From an uncultured Bacteroidales bacterium (lineage in GTDB: Bacteria > Bacteroidota > Bacteroidia > Bacteroidales > WCHB1-69), in the NCBI GenBank assembly GCA_900315705.1, contig ONAB01000030.1, forward strand, positions 1 to 32,021: a stretch of DNA of 32,021 nt. Direction: 5' to 3'. Below the pieces are notes generated by a model that worked only from the letters and a program-made list of their open reading frames with translations, had not been told where the DNA came from and did no database searches. Below, one piece after another: positions 7,894 through 13,034 of the stretch; the first letter of the stretch is position 1, and each line of letters begins with the position of its first letter. The position numbers and the translations under genes were made by a program.

Positions 7894-9048
7894 ATGGTGA
7901 TGACTAACAGATCATATCGCCCTAGAAATCCTGGCCACGACTACTATGGCACAGGCACCTATCTTATCACGTTGGTGGTAAGCGGACGGGAACCTTTGTT
8001 AGGTTGCTTGGGCAATGATGCGACCAATCCCGAAGTGCAGTTGTCGCCTTTGGGCAAAGCGGTGCAACAAGTGTGGAAGCAGACACCTGAGAAACAGGCA
8101 GAACATGGCAACCACGTGGTAGTACACGCCTGTATCTGTATGCCTGACCATTTCCACGGTGTGTTAGAAGTGCTGGAACCGATGCGGTGGAGTTTGGGCG
8201 ACATTGTGCAGGCATTCAAAGCGGCATGCACAAGCCAGTGGCAGTATGCGCAAGGCCTCCTTAATTCCACCAATCGACCGATATCGGTCGATTGGAAAAG
8301 CCCAAGAGTCCCGGATTGGTTGCGGGAGAAAGCCCGGAACCACTATAACGAAGGAACTTTGGTCCGGAGCCTCTCAAAAAAGCAGCGGCAGGAATACTAC
8401 GCCCTTCTAGGCCGTGAACGCCGCCCGCTTTTCGATGACAACTATGACGACACCGTGTGCCTAGATAACCGCCAGCGCGAGGCAATGATCGCTTATGTGC
8501 AAGACAACCCGCGCCGTGCCATTTTGCGACGAACCCTGCCCGATGTGATGCAACGTTGCCTTCACGTGCAGATAGGCGGCCATAGCTACGGCACTTTTGG
8601 TAACCTTTTTCTGTTGCGATGGGCAAACAAGGTGCAGGTGCAGTGCCATCGCAAGCACCCGATTAGCGGCCTGCCATATGAGGAAACTGCCGACTACGCA
8701 AGTCAGCACGCGCAATGGGAAACCGCCATTCTTGATGGCGCCACGGTAATTGTCACCCCCGGTATCTCACGGGGCGAACTGTTAATGAAAAATGAATGCT
8801 TGGAGAAAGGATATCCACTCATCCACATACAGAAAGACCCCATTGGTCCCTATTGGAAACCCGAGCGGCAGCGTTTCGACGCCTGCGCCAACGGAAGTCT
8901 GCTAGTCCTTGCCCCGTGGGAACTAGATAGGATGGATGCCGTGGCCGGAGTGCCTTCCGACACAGACTACAGCCGGTTCCACAATCTGAATCACCTCGCA
9001 GCCGAAATATGCAATTTTTCCGGAAATGCTAAAATAATCAGGAATTAA
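7894..9048 (+). CDS. REP-associated tyrosine transposase (RAYT, Y1/HUH family) with extra C-terminal Rossmann-like domain
   Basis: 384 aa. Residues about 5-220 match the Y1 transposase (TnpA_REP) family: the N-terminal GHDYYGTGTYLITLVV strand, the metal-binding HUH motif HFH at 86-88 within ACICMPDHFHGVL, a helix around IVQAFKAACTSQWQY where the nucleophilic Tyr is expected (Y118 is the candidate), and NYDDTVCLDNRQREAMIAYV with NPRRA at 184-208. Such enzymes cut and join single-stranded DNA at palindromic hairpins. Typical RAYTs are 150-220 aa; here about 160 more residues follow, with ATVIVTPGISRGE, CLEKGYPLIHIQ and GSLLVLAPWE (283-343), which resembles the nucleotide-binding Rossmann fold of DprA/SLOG proteins. 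That assignment is by eye. The gene stands alone, with no flanking inverted-repeat insertion-sequence ends seen. Confidence 0.82.
   Translation: MVMTNRSYRPRNPGHDYYGTGTYLITLVVSGREPLLGCLGNDATNPEVQLSPLGKAVQQVWKQTPEKQAEHGNHVVVHACICMPDHFHGVLEVLEPMRWSLGDIVQAFKAACTSQWQYAQGLLNSTNRPISVDWKSPRVPDWLREKARNHYNEGTLVRSLSKKQRQEYYALLGRERRPLFDDNYDDTVCLDNRQREAMIAYVQDNPRRAILRRTLPDVMQRCLHVQIGGHSYGTFGNLFLLRWANKVQVQCHRKHPISGLPYEETADYASQHAQWETAILDGATVIVTPGISRGELLMKNECLEKGYPLIHIQKDPIGPYWKPERQRFDACANGSLLVLAPWELDRMDAVAGVPSDTDYSRFHNLNHLAAEICNFSGNAKIIRN
8270..8295 (+). repeat. Perfect 26-bp palindrome inside the transposase gene
   Basis: The arm CCAATCGACCGAT (8270-8282) is followed directly by its exact reverse complement (8283-8295). 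It encodes residues TNRPISVDW (126-134), and the reverse strand also encodes NRPISVDW. It sits between the Y1 catalytic helix and the following conserved block, so it may be tolerated as a surface loop. Confidence 0.9.
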
Positions 9049-9384: not shown

Positions 9385-10860
9385 CTATTTTCTCACCTTC
9401 TTCACGAACTCCTCCACTTCCGGCACACCGCCTTGATAGACGAGGTAGCCGTCGTAGGGCTCGCGCTTGGTGATTTCGTCGTTGATGGGGGTGAGCATCA
9501 GCTTCTTCACATCCTCGCGCTTTTGGCCGCTCTCCTTGGTGAGGCCGAGCGCCCAGCCGAGCTTGATGTAGGAGCTCTCTGCCAGCATATTGTCGGCGGG
9601 GATGATGCCGCGGGCCATCATATCACGGCCCGTGTCATAGACGAACATATGGGTGTAGCCCCAGATGGTCTGCACGCTCATATACTGGTGCACGCCCGCG
9701 TCGGTGGCGCGCTGGATGGCGTCGAACATACCCTTGTTGACGTGCCCGAGGCCGGTGCCGTCCCACACAATGCCCTTGTAACCGTTGTCGATCAGCGCAT
9801 CCAGCACGTCGGGTTTCATACCCGGGTAGTAGTAGAGGATGGCCACGCGGTCGTCGAACGTCGGCACGATGCGGGTGACGTTCGGGTCGTTCTTGGCGAT
9901 GCTGCGCTTGTAGTCCTCGTAGTTGGTGATGACCTCCACCTGGCGGTGCTGCTCACCGTGGCGGCGGTGGTTATAGACCTCCTTGATGGGCTGCACACCC
10001 TCCTTGCGGTTCACCGTGGCCAACGGCGTGTCGCCGATGGTGCGGAACGTGGAGCGGTAGGAGCTGTGCATCTTGCGCACGCGCGTGCCGCGGTGCAGGA
10101 AACCGTAGTCGTCGCTGGTGGGACCGAACATACAGACCATCACCTCGGCGATGTCACCGTGACCGGCAGCGGTCATTGCGTGCATCAGGTTCAGGGCGGC
10201 GTCGGAGCTCGGACGGTCGGAGGAACGCTGGGAACCCACCAACACCACAGGCATCGGGAGGTTCTGGCACATATAGGTCAACGCGGTGGCGGTGTGCGCC
10301 AACGTGTCGGTGCCGTGACCGATCACGATACCCTCGATGCCCTTCTTGATTTCGTCGCCAATCTTGTTGGCCAGGGCCTTGTACTCCACAGGCGACATAT
10401 TCTCGGAGAAGACGGCGAACACCTTCTCGGTCTCCAGGTTGCAGATGTCGGCCAGCTCGGGTACGGCGCCATACAGTTCGCCGGGCGAGAAGGCGGGAAT
10501 CACGGCGCCGGTGCGGTAGTCAAGGCGCGAGGCGATGGTGCCGCCGGTGCCGAGCAGCTTCACGTGCGGCAGACCGGGCGTGTAGGGGAACTCTTTCTCC
10601 GGAATCTTGAAGACGGGCTGCGGGTCGCGCTCGCCCTTCATATCGGTCACCGTCTCAATGTCGATGCCAATGTTGTAGCCCGTGGCCACCTTCATCACGA
10701 TGTGGATGTCGTCGGTGTTTTCGGCGCGCGGAAGAATCTTGCCGGAGAAGTGTCCGCGAGTGGTCTCCACCTCGGCCTTGTCCCACACGTGCACGTCGTA
10801 TTTCTTGAGCATCTCCAATGCTCTGCCTTTATATCCTTGGAATGTTTTTTTGTCGTCCAT
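9385..10860 (-). CDS. gatD: Archaeal-type glutamyl-tRNA(Gln) amidotransferase subunit D
   Basis: 491 aa from the ATG at 10860. GatD is the asparaginase-like subunit that releases ammonia from glutamine (or asparagine) for GatE. The N-terminal region (about 1-90) contains the GatD-specific domain, with the family signature IHIVMKVATGYNIGIDI (52-68), which plain asparaginases lack. The asparaginase fold follows, with the catalytic set intact: TGGTIAS (T105, T108), HGTDT (T184, D185) and RVRKMHSS (K263); SQRSSDRPSSDA (210-221) is also typical. Later blocks GIVWDGTGLGHVN and NMLAESSYIKLGWALG match the archaeal family. It is longer than archaeal GatD (about 435 aa), mainly through an insert near 297-330 and a C-terminal tail. 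It follows gatE at 63 bp, so the two form one operon. A longer frame starting at 10908 is rejected because its extra residues come from a palindromic repeat. Confidence 0.93.
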   Translation of the reverse strand: MDDKKTFQGYKGRALEMLKKYDVHVWDKAEVETTRGHFSGKILPRAENTDDIHIVMKVATGYNIGIDIETVTDMKGERDPQPVFKIPEKEFPYTPGLPHVKLLGTGGTIASRLDYRTGAVIPAFSPGELYGAVPELADICNLETEKVFAVFSENMSPVEYKALANKIGDEIKKGIEGIVIGHGTDTLAHTATALTYMCQNLPMPVVLVGSQRSSDRPSSDAALNLMHAMTAAGHGDIAEVMVCMFGPTSDDYGFLHRGTRVRKMHSSYRSTFRTIGDTPLATVNRKEGVQPIKEVYNHRRHGEQHRQVEVITNYEDYKRSIAKNDPNVTRIVPTFDDRVAILYYYPGMKPDVLDALIDNGYKGIVWDGTGLGHVNKGMFDAIQRATDAGVHQYMSVQTIWGYTHMFVYDTGRDMMARGIIPADNMLAESSYIKLGWALGLTKESGQKREDVKKLMLTPINDEITKREPYDGYLVYQGGVPEVEEFVKKVRK

Positions 10861-10877
10861 ATATATTATTGTTTGTT

Positions 10878-10905
10878 GTAGAGACGCGGCGCGCCGCGTC
10901 TCTAC
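10878..10905. repeat. 28-bp perfect palindrome (REP-like) between gatE and gatD
   Basis: The arm GTAGAGACGCGGCG (10878-10891) is followed immediately by its exact reverse complement. It is much more GC-rich than the flanking AT-rich spacer. The layout is that of a repetitive extragenic palindrome. In RNA it would form a very stable hairpin in the gatE-gatD spacer. Confidence 0.9.
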
Positions 10906-10923
10906 CATATTAATATTATCGGT

Positions 10924-12891
10924 TTATAAGGTTTTTATCTCGCTGGCCAGTTCGGTGAATGAGACATTGCCCACAGCCAACGGGCGGATGGCGCCGAGCA
11001 TTGTGTTTCTGAGGTCGGAGCCATCTTCTATCATACGGTTGCGACGTTGCTCGAACGTGTCGACCACTTCGAACATACGGGCCATAAGCTCCTGTTTGGA
11101 CGCTTTGGTGTATCCCGTGAGTTTCAGAAGCTCCTCCATCGTGGCCGTCGGATGCTCGAACATCAGTTTCAGCATATCGAGGGCGATGGCCTTGTCGAGG
11201 TTCTCCTTCTTCAGGAAAGCGAAAAGGTCGTAGAGTTTGCAGGTGCAGAACGGAATCTTACCGTACTGGCCGTGCAGGTGCTTGAGGCGCTGGCCGAAGA
11301 GGGTGCTGATGTATTTGGGACAATAGCCAAGTTCGTCGGCAATCTTCTTGATGAGCGGGAAGAGGTTGTGCGTGAAGATGTACTTGAAGCAGTCCTGCGG
11401 CACGCCCCACTCGACCATCTGTGCGTAGCGGTCGGCGACGGCGTCGGGGATGTTCTTGCGCAGCTCCTCGATGTAGTCGTTGGTGAGCGGGATGGGGGCC
11501 GAGTCGGTGTCGGGGTACATACGGTCGGCGCCGGGCAGCACGCGCTCGAAGATGGTGGTGCCGTCGGTCAGGGCCTTGCGGGTCTCTTGCGGCACGCCGT
11601 CGAAGGCCATCAGGGCGCGTTCCTCAATCACTTCCAGGGCGGTCTTCACATCGTCTTCGGGTGCCCAGAAGATGATCTGTGCGTCGTTGTCGCCGGCATT
11701 CATCGCCTTGGCGGCCTTCTCGAAGACGCTGCGGCTCACCACATCTTCCAGATCCTCGCTGGTGGCCATATTGGGGCGCTCGAGGCAGGCGATGACCTTA
11801 AGCCGGTCGGCGAACTCGCTGTAGAAGGGGTGGCCGGGCTGGGTGAAGTGCGACAACAGGCCAGCGAATTGCGGCAGGTTGACGGCATACACCTTGGCGC
11901 CGCCCTTGATAGCGTCGGTGATGGGGTCGAAGTAGAAATGGAACTGCTTGGGATCCAGTTCTATATAGTTCATTTTCCAATTCTCTTTGGAGATGCGTGC
12001 TTTCAGCTGGTCGCGGATGGCGAGCAGGGCCCATTGGCGGAAGCACTCCACGTGGGTCACTTCGGGAATCCATTTGGTGTGGGCCACGCCCTTGACCTCG
12101 ATGCGGGTGCCGCCGGTGCAGCTCACGTTCACGTCCTCGCGGCCGGCGCCGATGCCGGTGCGCACGCGGCCGGTGCTGCGGTTCAGGAAGCGGATGTAGT
12201 TGCAGGCCTCCTCCACCTCGTCAGGGTTGACCATCTCGGGATAGGTCACCGTCTCGATGAGGGGCATACCCAGACGGTCGGTGCGGTAGATGCGCGTGTG
12301 GCCAATGTCGGACACCTCGCGGCAGGCATCCTCCTCCACGCTCAGCTGGATGAGGCGCACCTTCTTGTGCTTGAGCTGGATTTCGCCGTCGATGCCGAGG
12401 ATGGCGGTGCGCTGGAATCCCGTGGGGATGGAACCGTCGAGGTACTGCTTGCGGGTGATGTGCACCTCGCCCACGATTTTCAGTTTCGAGGCGAGGGCAA
12501 TCTCGAGTGCATATTGCAGGGCCTCAGGATTGATGGGGAACGGGGGGGTGTCATCGACTTCGTAGGTGCACGCTGTGCGGTGTGCGATGCGATAGACGAT
12601 GTTCTTGCGGGTCTTGAACTCCATCAGCGCGGTGCCGTCGTACTCGCCCATCTCGGAGAGGGTGGGGCGCATATGGCGCAACAGCTCCGCGTCGTATTCG
12701 TCTGGTTTCTGGAAGATGCCGGCGGGACAGCGGCAGAAGAGTTTCTCTTTGGTGGCCAGTTGCTGGTGTACCTCCAGCCCGGACATAAAGCCGATGCGGT
12801 CGTAGTCAGCCTGCGTGGCCTCCTTGCGGTCCACATAGCCGATGGCCTTGCGGCTTTTCTCGTAATTTTCCTGAGGATTGATGGTTTGCAT
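10924..12891 (-). CDS. gatE: Archaeal-type glutamyl-tRNA(Gln) amidotransferase subunit E
   Basis: 655 aa. GatE activates misacylated Glu-tRNA(Gln) with ATP and transfers ammonia supplied by GatD, giving Gln-tRNA(Gln). Visible GatB/GatE-family motifs are GLEVHQQL (38-45), LFCRCPA (51-57), DDTPPFPIN (111-119), DGSIPTGFQRT (150-160), SVEEDACRE (182-190), DRLGMPLIE (203-211) and REDVNVS with GGTRIEVKGV (249-267). Two things make it GatE rather than bacterial GatB: a middle insertion (about 300-480) in the position of the AspRS-like domain of GatE, and its pairing with gatD. The C-terminal part (about 500-655) corresponds to the helical/YqeY-like tRNA-binding tail. It is longer than bacterial GatB (about 475 aa) and close to archaeal GatE (about 620-635), with about 35 extra N-terminal residues. 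GC and codon choice resemble lepA and topB nearby, so any transfer is old. Confidence 0.94.
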   Translation of the reverse strand: MQTINPQENYEKSRKAIGYVDRKEATQADYDRIGFMSGLEVHQQLATKEKLFCRCPAGIFQKPDEYDAELLRHMRPTLSEMGEYDGTALMEFKTRKNIVYRIAHRTACTYEVDDTPPFPINPEALQYALEIALASKLKIVGEVHITRKQYLDGSIPTGFQRTAILGIDGEIQLKHKKVRLIQLSVEEDACREVSDIGHTRIYRTDRLGMPLIETVTYPEMVNPDEVEEACNYIRFLNRSTGRVRTGIGAGREDVNVSCTGGTRIEVKGVAHTKWIPEVTHVECFRQWALLAIRDQLKARISKENWKMNYIELDPKQFHFYFDPITDAIKGGAKVYAVNLPQFAGLLSHFTQPGHPFYSEFADRLKVIACLERPNMATSEDLEDVVSRSVFEKAAKAMNAGDNDAQIIFWAPEDDVKTALEVIEERALMAFDGVPQETRKALTDGTTIFERVLPGADRMYPDTDSAPIPLTNDYIEELRKNIPDAVADRYAQMVEWGVPQDCFKYIFTHNLFPLIKKIADELGYCPKYISTLFGQRLKHLHGQYGKIPFCTCKLYDLFAFLKKENLDKAIALDMLKLMFEHPTATMEELLKLTGYTKASKQELMARMFEVVDTFEQRRNRMIEDGSDLRNTMLGAIRPLAVGNVSFTELASEIKTL

Positions 12892-12957
12892 ATATCGGTG
12901 GTTTGTTAGTAAATATGCGGTTCAACGGGGAACGCGCCCCGGAAATTTTTGAAGCGG

Positions 12958-12965
12958 CAAATATA
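12958..12965 (-). promoter_or_regulatory. -7 box of the gatE-gatD operon
   Basis: TATATTTG on the minus strand fits TAnnTTTG and lies 66 bp upstream of the gatE ATG. No convincing -33 TTTG is present at the expected distance. Confidence 0.45.
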
Positions 12966-13034
12966 AAAAAATATTTTTTTGATGCGTGATTTTTTTGCGG
13001 AATGGCTCAAAAGCGTACCATATGTTATTTTTTA

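Follow-up and report, generated by a model that had tools for sequence, protein, structure and literature searches.

The window analysed here is a stretch of 32,021 nucleotides (contig ONAB01000030.1, assembly GCA_900315705.1) from an uncultured Bacteroidales bacterium. Judged by their sequences, its positions 9385-12891 carry genuine genes for GatD and GatE, the two subunits of the Glu-tRNA(Gln) amidotransferase GatDE described as archaeal, in a genome that also encodes an ordinary glutaminyl-tRNA synthetase (GlnRS). GatDE beside GlnRS constitutes a variant of a known enzyme pair, whose role is unproven and most likely auxiliary or one of repair. The features concerned are the following, with the GatE domain limits approximate and drawn by hand.

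10924..12891, minus strand: gatE, Glu-tRNA(Gln) amidotransferase subunit E, 655 amino acids (TIGR00134, NF003107, PDB matches, AlphaFold2 model)
9385..10908, minus strand: gatD, amidotransferase subunit D with asparaginase fold and GatD_N domain, 507 amino acids as opened (TIGR02153, PF00710, PF17763, PF18195)
12892..12991, minus strand: region upstream of gatE, sequence read, contains TATATTTG at 12965-12958
GatE residues 1-28: N-terminal extension
GatE residues ~29-285 and 431-470: kinase/cradle core
GatE residues ~286-430: AspRS-like insert
GatE residues ~471-655: helical and tail domains

The domain names are those in use for GatE and presumably apply here. Both open reading frames (ORFs) are intact, with gatE upstream and gatD beginning 15 bases after its end. 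The true start of gatD is probably Met17 at position 10860, giving 491 amino acids, because the alignments of most relatives begin at residues 17-23. GatD scored 458.9 bits against TIGR02153 and GatE 410.9 bits against TIGR00134 (NCBIfam equivalog cut-offs of 324 and 319.55, respectively), while GatE also reached 469.2 bits against NF003107 (cut-off 456). In GatD, the N and C domains of asparaginase (PF00710 and PF17763) and the GatD_N domain (PF18195, 39.6 against a cut-off of 25.7) were matched. The protein also exceeds the cut-off of the asparaginase model TIGR00519 (334.7 versus 260.5 bits), although the GatD models score higher. T121, T200, D201 and K279 of GatD, which we take to be the catalytic residues, are all present in the 507-residue numbering; they are the same residues that a preliminary description of this DNA, made from the letters alone, had named as T105, T184, D185 and K263 and had rightly called intact.

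GatD and GatE have their closest solved relatives in the corresponding chains of 1zq1 (Pyrococcus abyssi GatDE) and 2d6f (Methanothermobacter thermautotrophicus GatDE), with E-values of 3.3e-101 for GatD to 1zq1_A and 2e-87 for GatE to 2d6f_C. An AlphaFold2 model of GatE, built from 41 aligned sequences, has a mean predicted local distance difference test score (pLDDT) of 86.8. Its three top PDB matches by E-value were 1zq1_C, 2d6f_C and 2d6f_D, with template modelling (TM) scores by target of 0.82, 0.78 and 0.76, respectively, and both entries rank ahead of the GatB structures by E-value. Combined, the intact ORFs, the scores over the equivalog cut-offs and the GatE fold bear out the earlier claim of a complete and adjacent pair.

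The two genes also travel together. In 70 of 81 loci (80 from named genomes plus the window), gatD lies downstream of gatE on the same strand; among the other 11, seven reach the contig end with 1-1258 bases left, and four have more than 4 kb without gatD. The evolutionary distances of GatD and GatE correlate (r of 0.88 over 33 taxa and 0.69 over the 24 taxa of the Bacteroidales clade), and gatD is the sole conserved neighbour, since the most frequent family not overlying gatE or gatD occurs in 13 of the 81 loci. The other frequent neighbour families were considered as an operon clue and rejected, as they are ORFs overlying gatE or gatD on the opposite strand. Linkage, correlated distances and the lack of any other conserved neighbour suit a self-contained housekeeping pair. 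Both genes are under strong purifying selection: against four close relatives, the ratio of nonsynonymous to synonymous substitution rates (dN/dS) was 0.06-0.10 for gatE (maximum 0.104) and 0.02-0.045 for gatD. Six relatives were tried, and L146 and L148 gave no value (saturated, or gene missed by the patterns used). With the active-site residues kept as well, the pair looks functional, as had been proposed.

Likeness to archaeal GatDE is the single point that speaks for archaeal contamination or misassembly, an explanation to which we give almost no weight. The assembly (3.0 Mb) is 97.62% complete with 0.19% contamination. Identity to the two archaeal homologues is 32-33% for GatE and 42-44% for GatD, far below the 56-62% for GatE and the 66-72% for GatD (GatD matches longer than 300 amino acids) found across 30 Bacteroidales loci. 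The base use of the pair (GC content 0.60, and 0.83-0.85 at third codon positions) and its codon adaptation to seven other genes of the window (gatE 0.76 and gatD 0.74, next below lepA at 0.79, with the remaining six at 0.54-0.71) agree with the claim that the genes are resident and match their neighbours. These neighbours are genes for LepA, a PD-(D/E)XK protein, a topoisomerase, CobW, an efflux set and a Fib_succ_major protein; LepA, the topoisomerase and the Fib_succ_major protein count against contamination. Furthermore, two named strains, Marinifilum flexuosum DSM 21950 and Perlabentimonas gracilis M08_MB, carry the pair, and G605, a genome consisting of a single contig, has it together with GlnRS on that contig. 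A misassembled archaeal contig, the doubt raised at the outset, is therefore not borne out.

To place the family, a GatE tree of 45 rows was built from 41 bacterial GatE, two archaeal GatE (PDB sequences) and two GatB. The 43 GatE sequences split from the two GatB at a support of 100/100, with bacterial GatE siding with archaeal GatE and outside the GatB clade, a placement in which would have spoken against an archaeal-type enzyme; in the GatD tree, which contains no ordinary asparaginases, the bacterial rows stand apart from the archaeal ones at 100/100, with a bootstrap that had not settled. The Bacteroidales form a GatE clade of 31 rows (100/100) with a Cloacimonadota row at its base, and two Aminicenantes rows and the genome G156 of another class are nested within it; the GatD tree puts the Aminicenantes rows close to the base of the Bacteroidales clade. 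This placement of Cloacimonadota, Aminicenantes and G156 points to possible transfers or binning errors. The loci concerned, L193 and L213 (Candidatus Aminicenantes) and L218 (Cloacimonadota), have Bacteroidales-type GatE and GatD, and GlnRS is found in all three. L030 (genome G357, of another class) has a strongly diverged GatDE, with GatE 35-36% identical to that of the window, an unsure place in the tree (84/31) and GlnRS present. Just two archaeal rows are included, too few to settle the origin, or which way and how often the genes passed between the two domains.

A comparison of the 43 GatE sequences, the two archaeal ones included, showed 77 invariant residues, 37 of which are also found in both GatB, including the GLE-H, EED, G-Q and R-D-N-S positions. 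At 26 sites, 39-41 of the 41 bacterial GatE agree on a residue that neither archaeal GatE has, and several of these sites lie in or beside the CTYE-DDTPP stretch. Identity to archaeal GatE is 39-41% in the main core (39-55% for the core overall) and 13-31% in the insert, helical and tail regions. The GatD insert near residues 297-330 occurs in L142, L145 and L146, whereas L150 lacks most of it and L035, L030, L004, L022 and both archaea have none of it; being confined to near relatives, it is no marker of a bacterial subfamily. The subfamily suggested by the preliminary description thus holds for GatE, by the tree and the 26 distinctive sites, and fails for the GatD insert, which is a local trait. 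The pair appears to be a genuine bacterial branch of GatDE, inherited as a two-gene unit in the Bacteroidales.

In a draw of 395 genomes of the phylum, GatE exceeded the cut-off in 30, namely the genome of the window and 29 of other classes; it was not found in the remaining 97 genomes of its own class in that draw, of which just five belong to its order. In a separate draw from the order, 124 of 295 genomes have GatE at E ≤ 1e-60 (122 over the cut-off), spread over 81 of 183 genera and including three of the four sampled genomes of its own genus. A scan of named genomes confirmed at least 562 of 583 stretches. The 80 named loci analysed are the best of these at least 562, those likest the window, and are little informative on distant carriers; nearly all are labelled Bacteroidales, Bacteroidetes or families thereof, the exceptions being two Candidatus Aminicenantes, one Cloacimonadota and one bacterium without a name. 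The nearest four of these 80 (84-90% identity) are apparently of ruminant origin, judging by their isolate names. G395, a 1.8 Mb genome of the same genus, has no GatE match and possesses GlnRS, AsnRS and GluRS, which makes it a natural loss for comparison; G592 (with GatE) and G494 (without) form a similar contrasting pair inside one genus.

The preliminary description had offered glutamine charging by an archaeal-type enzyme as one of two possibilities, and had called for a check of glnS, gatCAB and GluRS. The GlnRS of this genome scored 784.9 bits against TIGR00440 (cut-off 425.8), aligns with E. coli GlnRS over residues 3-545 of 546 and retains Cys229, presumably a residue of the glutamine pocket. 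The single GluRS match has Arg at the position of T. thermophilus Arg358 (counted on the alignment), which we take to be the discriminator against mischarging of tRNA-Gln, without being a full predictor. AsnRS is present. Neither GatA nor GatB was matched in this 97.62% complete genome, where PF01425 had no matches and PF02934 matched GatE alone. Within the order, GlnRS occurs in 268 of 295 genomes, and equally often with GatE (113/124) and without it (155/171); the corresponding table (113/11/155/16) shows no association (p 1.0). With an ordinary GlnRS, a GluRS with the discriminating Arg and the equal frequency of GlnRS without GatE, the view that glutamine charging in this lineage runs on GatDE finds no support. 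The other possibility offered, a different job for the pair, may still hold.

In the other classes, GlnRS was found in 26 of the 29 genomes with GatE, and the remaining three (G251, G287 and G314) have GatB; the table (26/3/77/191) gives a Fisher p of 1.5e-10, which ignores kinship, many of the 191 coming from few families. Six further GatE genomes reached via the named loci (6 of the 80 loci were tried) all have GlnRS. Among 80 genomes tested for GatB, 14 have it: 2 of 33 Bacteroidales with GatE, 0 of 33 without, and 12 of 14 genomes of other classes with GatE. The 33 of 124 and 33 of 171 Bacteroidales genomes used for AsnRS and GatB were hand-picked, mostly at least 97% complete. The two GatB-positive ones, G478 and G482, have GlnRS too, and three routes to Gln-tRNA may coexist there. 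GlnRS frames of about 760-845 amino acids, compared with the usual 560-600, were seen in several members of families f31, f37, f41, f43, f46 and f53 and suggest an extension.

Eleven Bacteroidales genomes with GatE gave no GlnRS match. For G428, G468, G522, G571, G637 and G644 we read this as assembly gaps because sampled congeners have GlnRS, while G403, G519, G533, G593 and G641 may really lack GlnRS. G403 and G519 (88 and 82% complete) are both sampled genomes of genus g179, and are the best candidates for bacteria relying on GatDE alone. In the sampled genomes GatDE is seldom the sole route found, and none has been demonstrated to depend on it alone.

Several explanations for a need of GatDE were tried and rejected. 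A non-discriminating GluRS is not seen, as all 31 GluRS sequences compared carry Arg at the Arg358 position (its own, 16 from hand-picked genomes with GatE and 14 from hand-picked genomes without). An altered GlnRS is not seen either, Cys229 being kept in 35 of 35, with no alignment column separating 16 sequences with GatE from 19 without; position 235 is variable (V/I/N/D/P) across both groups. A role on tRNA-Asn is disfavoured by AsnRS in 78 of 80 genomes, including all 33 Bacteroidales with GatE and all 33 without, and by the G1:C72 pair of its own tRNA-Asn; AsnRS is missing in G180 and G251, both of other classes. An extra or odd tRNA-Gln was not found among the 41 Rfam tRNA hits of this genome, where tRNA-Gln has the anticodons UUG and CUG alone; no tRNA-Ile is among these hits, so some tRNA genes are missing from the assembly and further tRNA-Gln are possible. 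Both tRNA-Gln have U1:A72, shared with no other tRNA found, and A1:U72 occurs solely in tRNA-Trp. Archaeal GatDE has been described as recognising tRNA-Gln by its D-loop and its A1:U72 pair (PMC9499178). Given U1:A72 here, bacterial GatDE must read tRNA-Gln otherwise or act elsewhere.

We propose that bacterial GatDE works beside GlnRS and not in its place. GatD would free ammonia from glutamine or asparagine, and GatE would phosphorylate the carboxylate group of the Glu in Glu-tRNA(Gln) before amidating it. The substrate would be a minor pool of Glu-tRNA(Gln), formed when GluRS (or GlnRS) charges tRNA-Gln with Glu, and the pair would both repair mischarged tRNA-Gln and supply a second source of Gln-tRNA(Gln). 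We infer the chemistry from the archaeal homologues, and the substrate and repair role are likewise inferred; the analysis does show the identity and fold of the pair, its active-site residues, the purifying selection on it, its occurrence alongside GlnRS and the lack of GatCAB matches in this genome. We consider such an auxiliary or repair amidotransferase to have an even chance of being the correct account. Weighing against it are the discriminating Arg of all GluRS compared, with and without GatE, which gives no sign of Glu-tRNA(Gln) formation; the lack of any GlnRS column that sets carriers apart; the U1:A72 pair of both tRNA-Gln in place of the archaeal A1:U72; and the helical and tail regions of GatE, just 13-20% identical to archaeal GatE, which we presume to be tRNA-facing in the archaeal enzyme. 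Between the two archaeal GatE, too, conservation is lowest in these regions (34-36%). A repair role also leaves unexplained why 171 of 295 Bacteroidales genomes have no GatE match.

The main rival is an enzyme that kept its amidotransferase chemistry and changed its substrate to a Glu or Asp with a carrier different from tRNA-Gln, leaving decoding behind. A second Gln-tRNA route in nearly every carrier examined, the lack of the archaeal A1:U72 in either tRNA-Gln, the low identity of the insert, helical and tail regions, and the 26 bacterial-type sites, several near CTYE-DDTPP, all agree with this; nevertheless, the core residues common to GatE and GatB are retained, the two archaeal enzymes also differ most in the helical and tail regions, and no conserved neighbour points to another pathway, and we regard a changed substrate as unlikely. 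The idea that GlnRS freed bacterial GatDE from glutamine decoding across the whole subfamily, for either another substrate or the surveillance of mischarged tRNA, is put forward tentatively, as possible though doubtful; we know of no GatDE with such a job. That Gln-tRNA(Gln) is instead made chiefly, or in equal share, by GatDE, with a minor or condition-dependent part for GlnRS, seems improbable: the strong codon adaptation of gatED, its conservation, the lack of a GatA or GatB match and the 11 of 124 carriers without a GlnRS match, both g179 genomes among them, are set against a GlnRS that looks complete and ordinary, a GluRS with its discriminating Arg, and GlnRS in 155 of the 171 GatE-negative genomes of the order, including G395 of the same genus. 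Slightly more improbable still is a GatD whose chief work is that of an asparaginase or glutaminase, joined by a GatE that acts little on tRNA; GatD does have the asparaginase fold and is the more conserved subunit by dN/dS, but it retains GatD_N and its pairing with GatE, and GatE itself is strongly selected with its kinase-site residues intact. A relic, acquired long ago and retained without function, would fit the patchy occurrence in the order and genus, yet is contradicted by dN/dS of at most 0.104 and by the intact ORFs and residues, and we hold it to be very unlikely.

The pair resembles archaeal GatDE (2d6f, 1zq1) in having two subunits, in its domain make-up, its catalytic residues and its fold, and in its equivalog scores; it differs in its 32-33% and 42-44% identity, its 26 (nearly) fixed GatE differences and its diverged helical and tail regions, and in its host, a bacterium with GlnRS and U1:A72 tRNA-Gln. 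An archaeal host without GlnRS is a feature of the distribution as described for GatDE and not of the protein family. With bacterial GatCAB it shares the kinase core and motifs common to GatB and GatE, while the absence of GatA and GatB matches here and the GatE-GatB split set it apart. Type I L-asparaginase has the catalytic fold of GatD, which differs by its GatD_N domain, its better score with the GatD model and the adjoining gatE. The nearest parallel to an amidotransferase kept beside direct charging is found in Bdellovibrio, Deinococcus and Thermus, which have GlnRS, AsnRS and GatCAB, and where GatCAB may make Asn on a tRNA-Asn with U1-A72 (PMC4206432). The genome studied here differs in having a tRNA-Asn with G1:C72 beside its AsnRS, and GatDE as the amidotransferase.

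In three reviews, GatDE is confined to archaea (PMC9499178, PMC8007984 and PMC8762117), and is termed an archaeal signature protein in one of them (PMC8762117). According to the 2022 review, no archaeon has GlnRS, and co-evolution of GatDE with archaeal tRNA-Gln is suggested, which would account for the failure of GlnRS to be adopted (PMC9499178). The titles and abstract openings of the matched literature, which largely leaves subscription journals outside, contain no report of bacterial GatDE, nor is one found in the parts seen of PMC8007984 and PMC4206432, which cover GatDE and Bacteroidetes; papers citing the GatDE KEGG numbers, in the excerpts available, merely tabulate the gene in metagenomes. 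Since the NCBIfam models would label such proteins as GatD and GatE, the genes are probably annotated in databases already. GatD (K09482) is listed among rumen microbiome marker genes (PMC6167468), and as ruminant Bacteroidales carry gatD (L142-L145), rumen counts of K09482 need not come from archaea alone. With GatDE and GlnRS together in many bacterial families, the strict exclusion of the two routes falls, and named strains with both offer natural systems for comparing them. The question raised is what GatDE does where it is not needed for making Gln-tRNA.

A few minor features complete the description of the window. About 70 bases ahead of gatE, TATATTTG at 12965-12958 is a candidate promoter element, which we take to resemble the -7 element of Bacteroidota promoters. 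At 7894-9048 lies a 384-amino-acid ORF with no Pfam match at E 0.001, whose MPDHFHG stretch recalls REP-associated HUH transposases. At 15-1862, a long and highly repetitive open frame on the plus strand (GGVGLAVAVRPGEA...) may represent an array of repeats instead of a gene.

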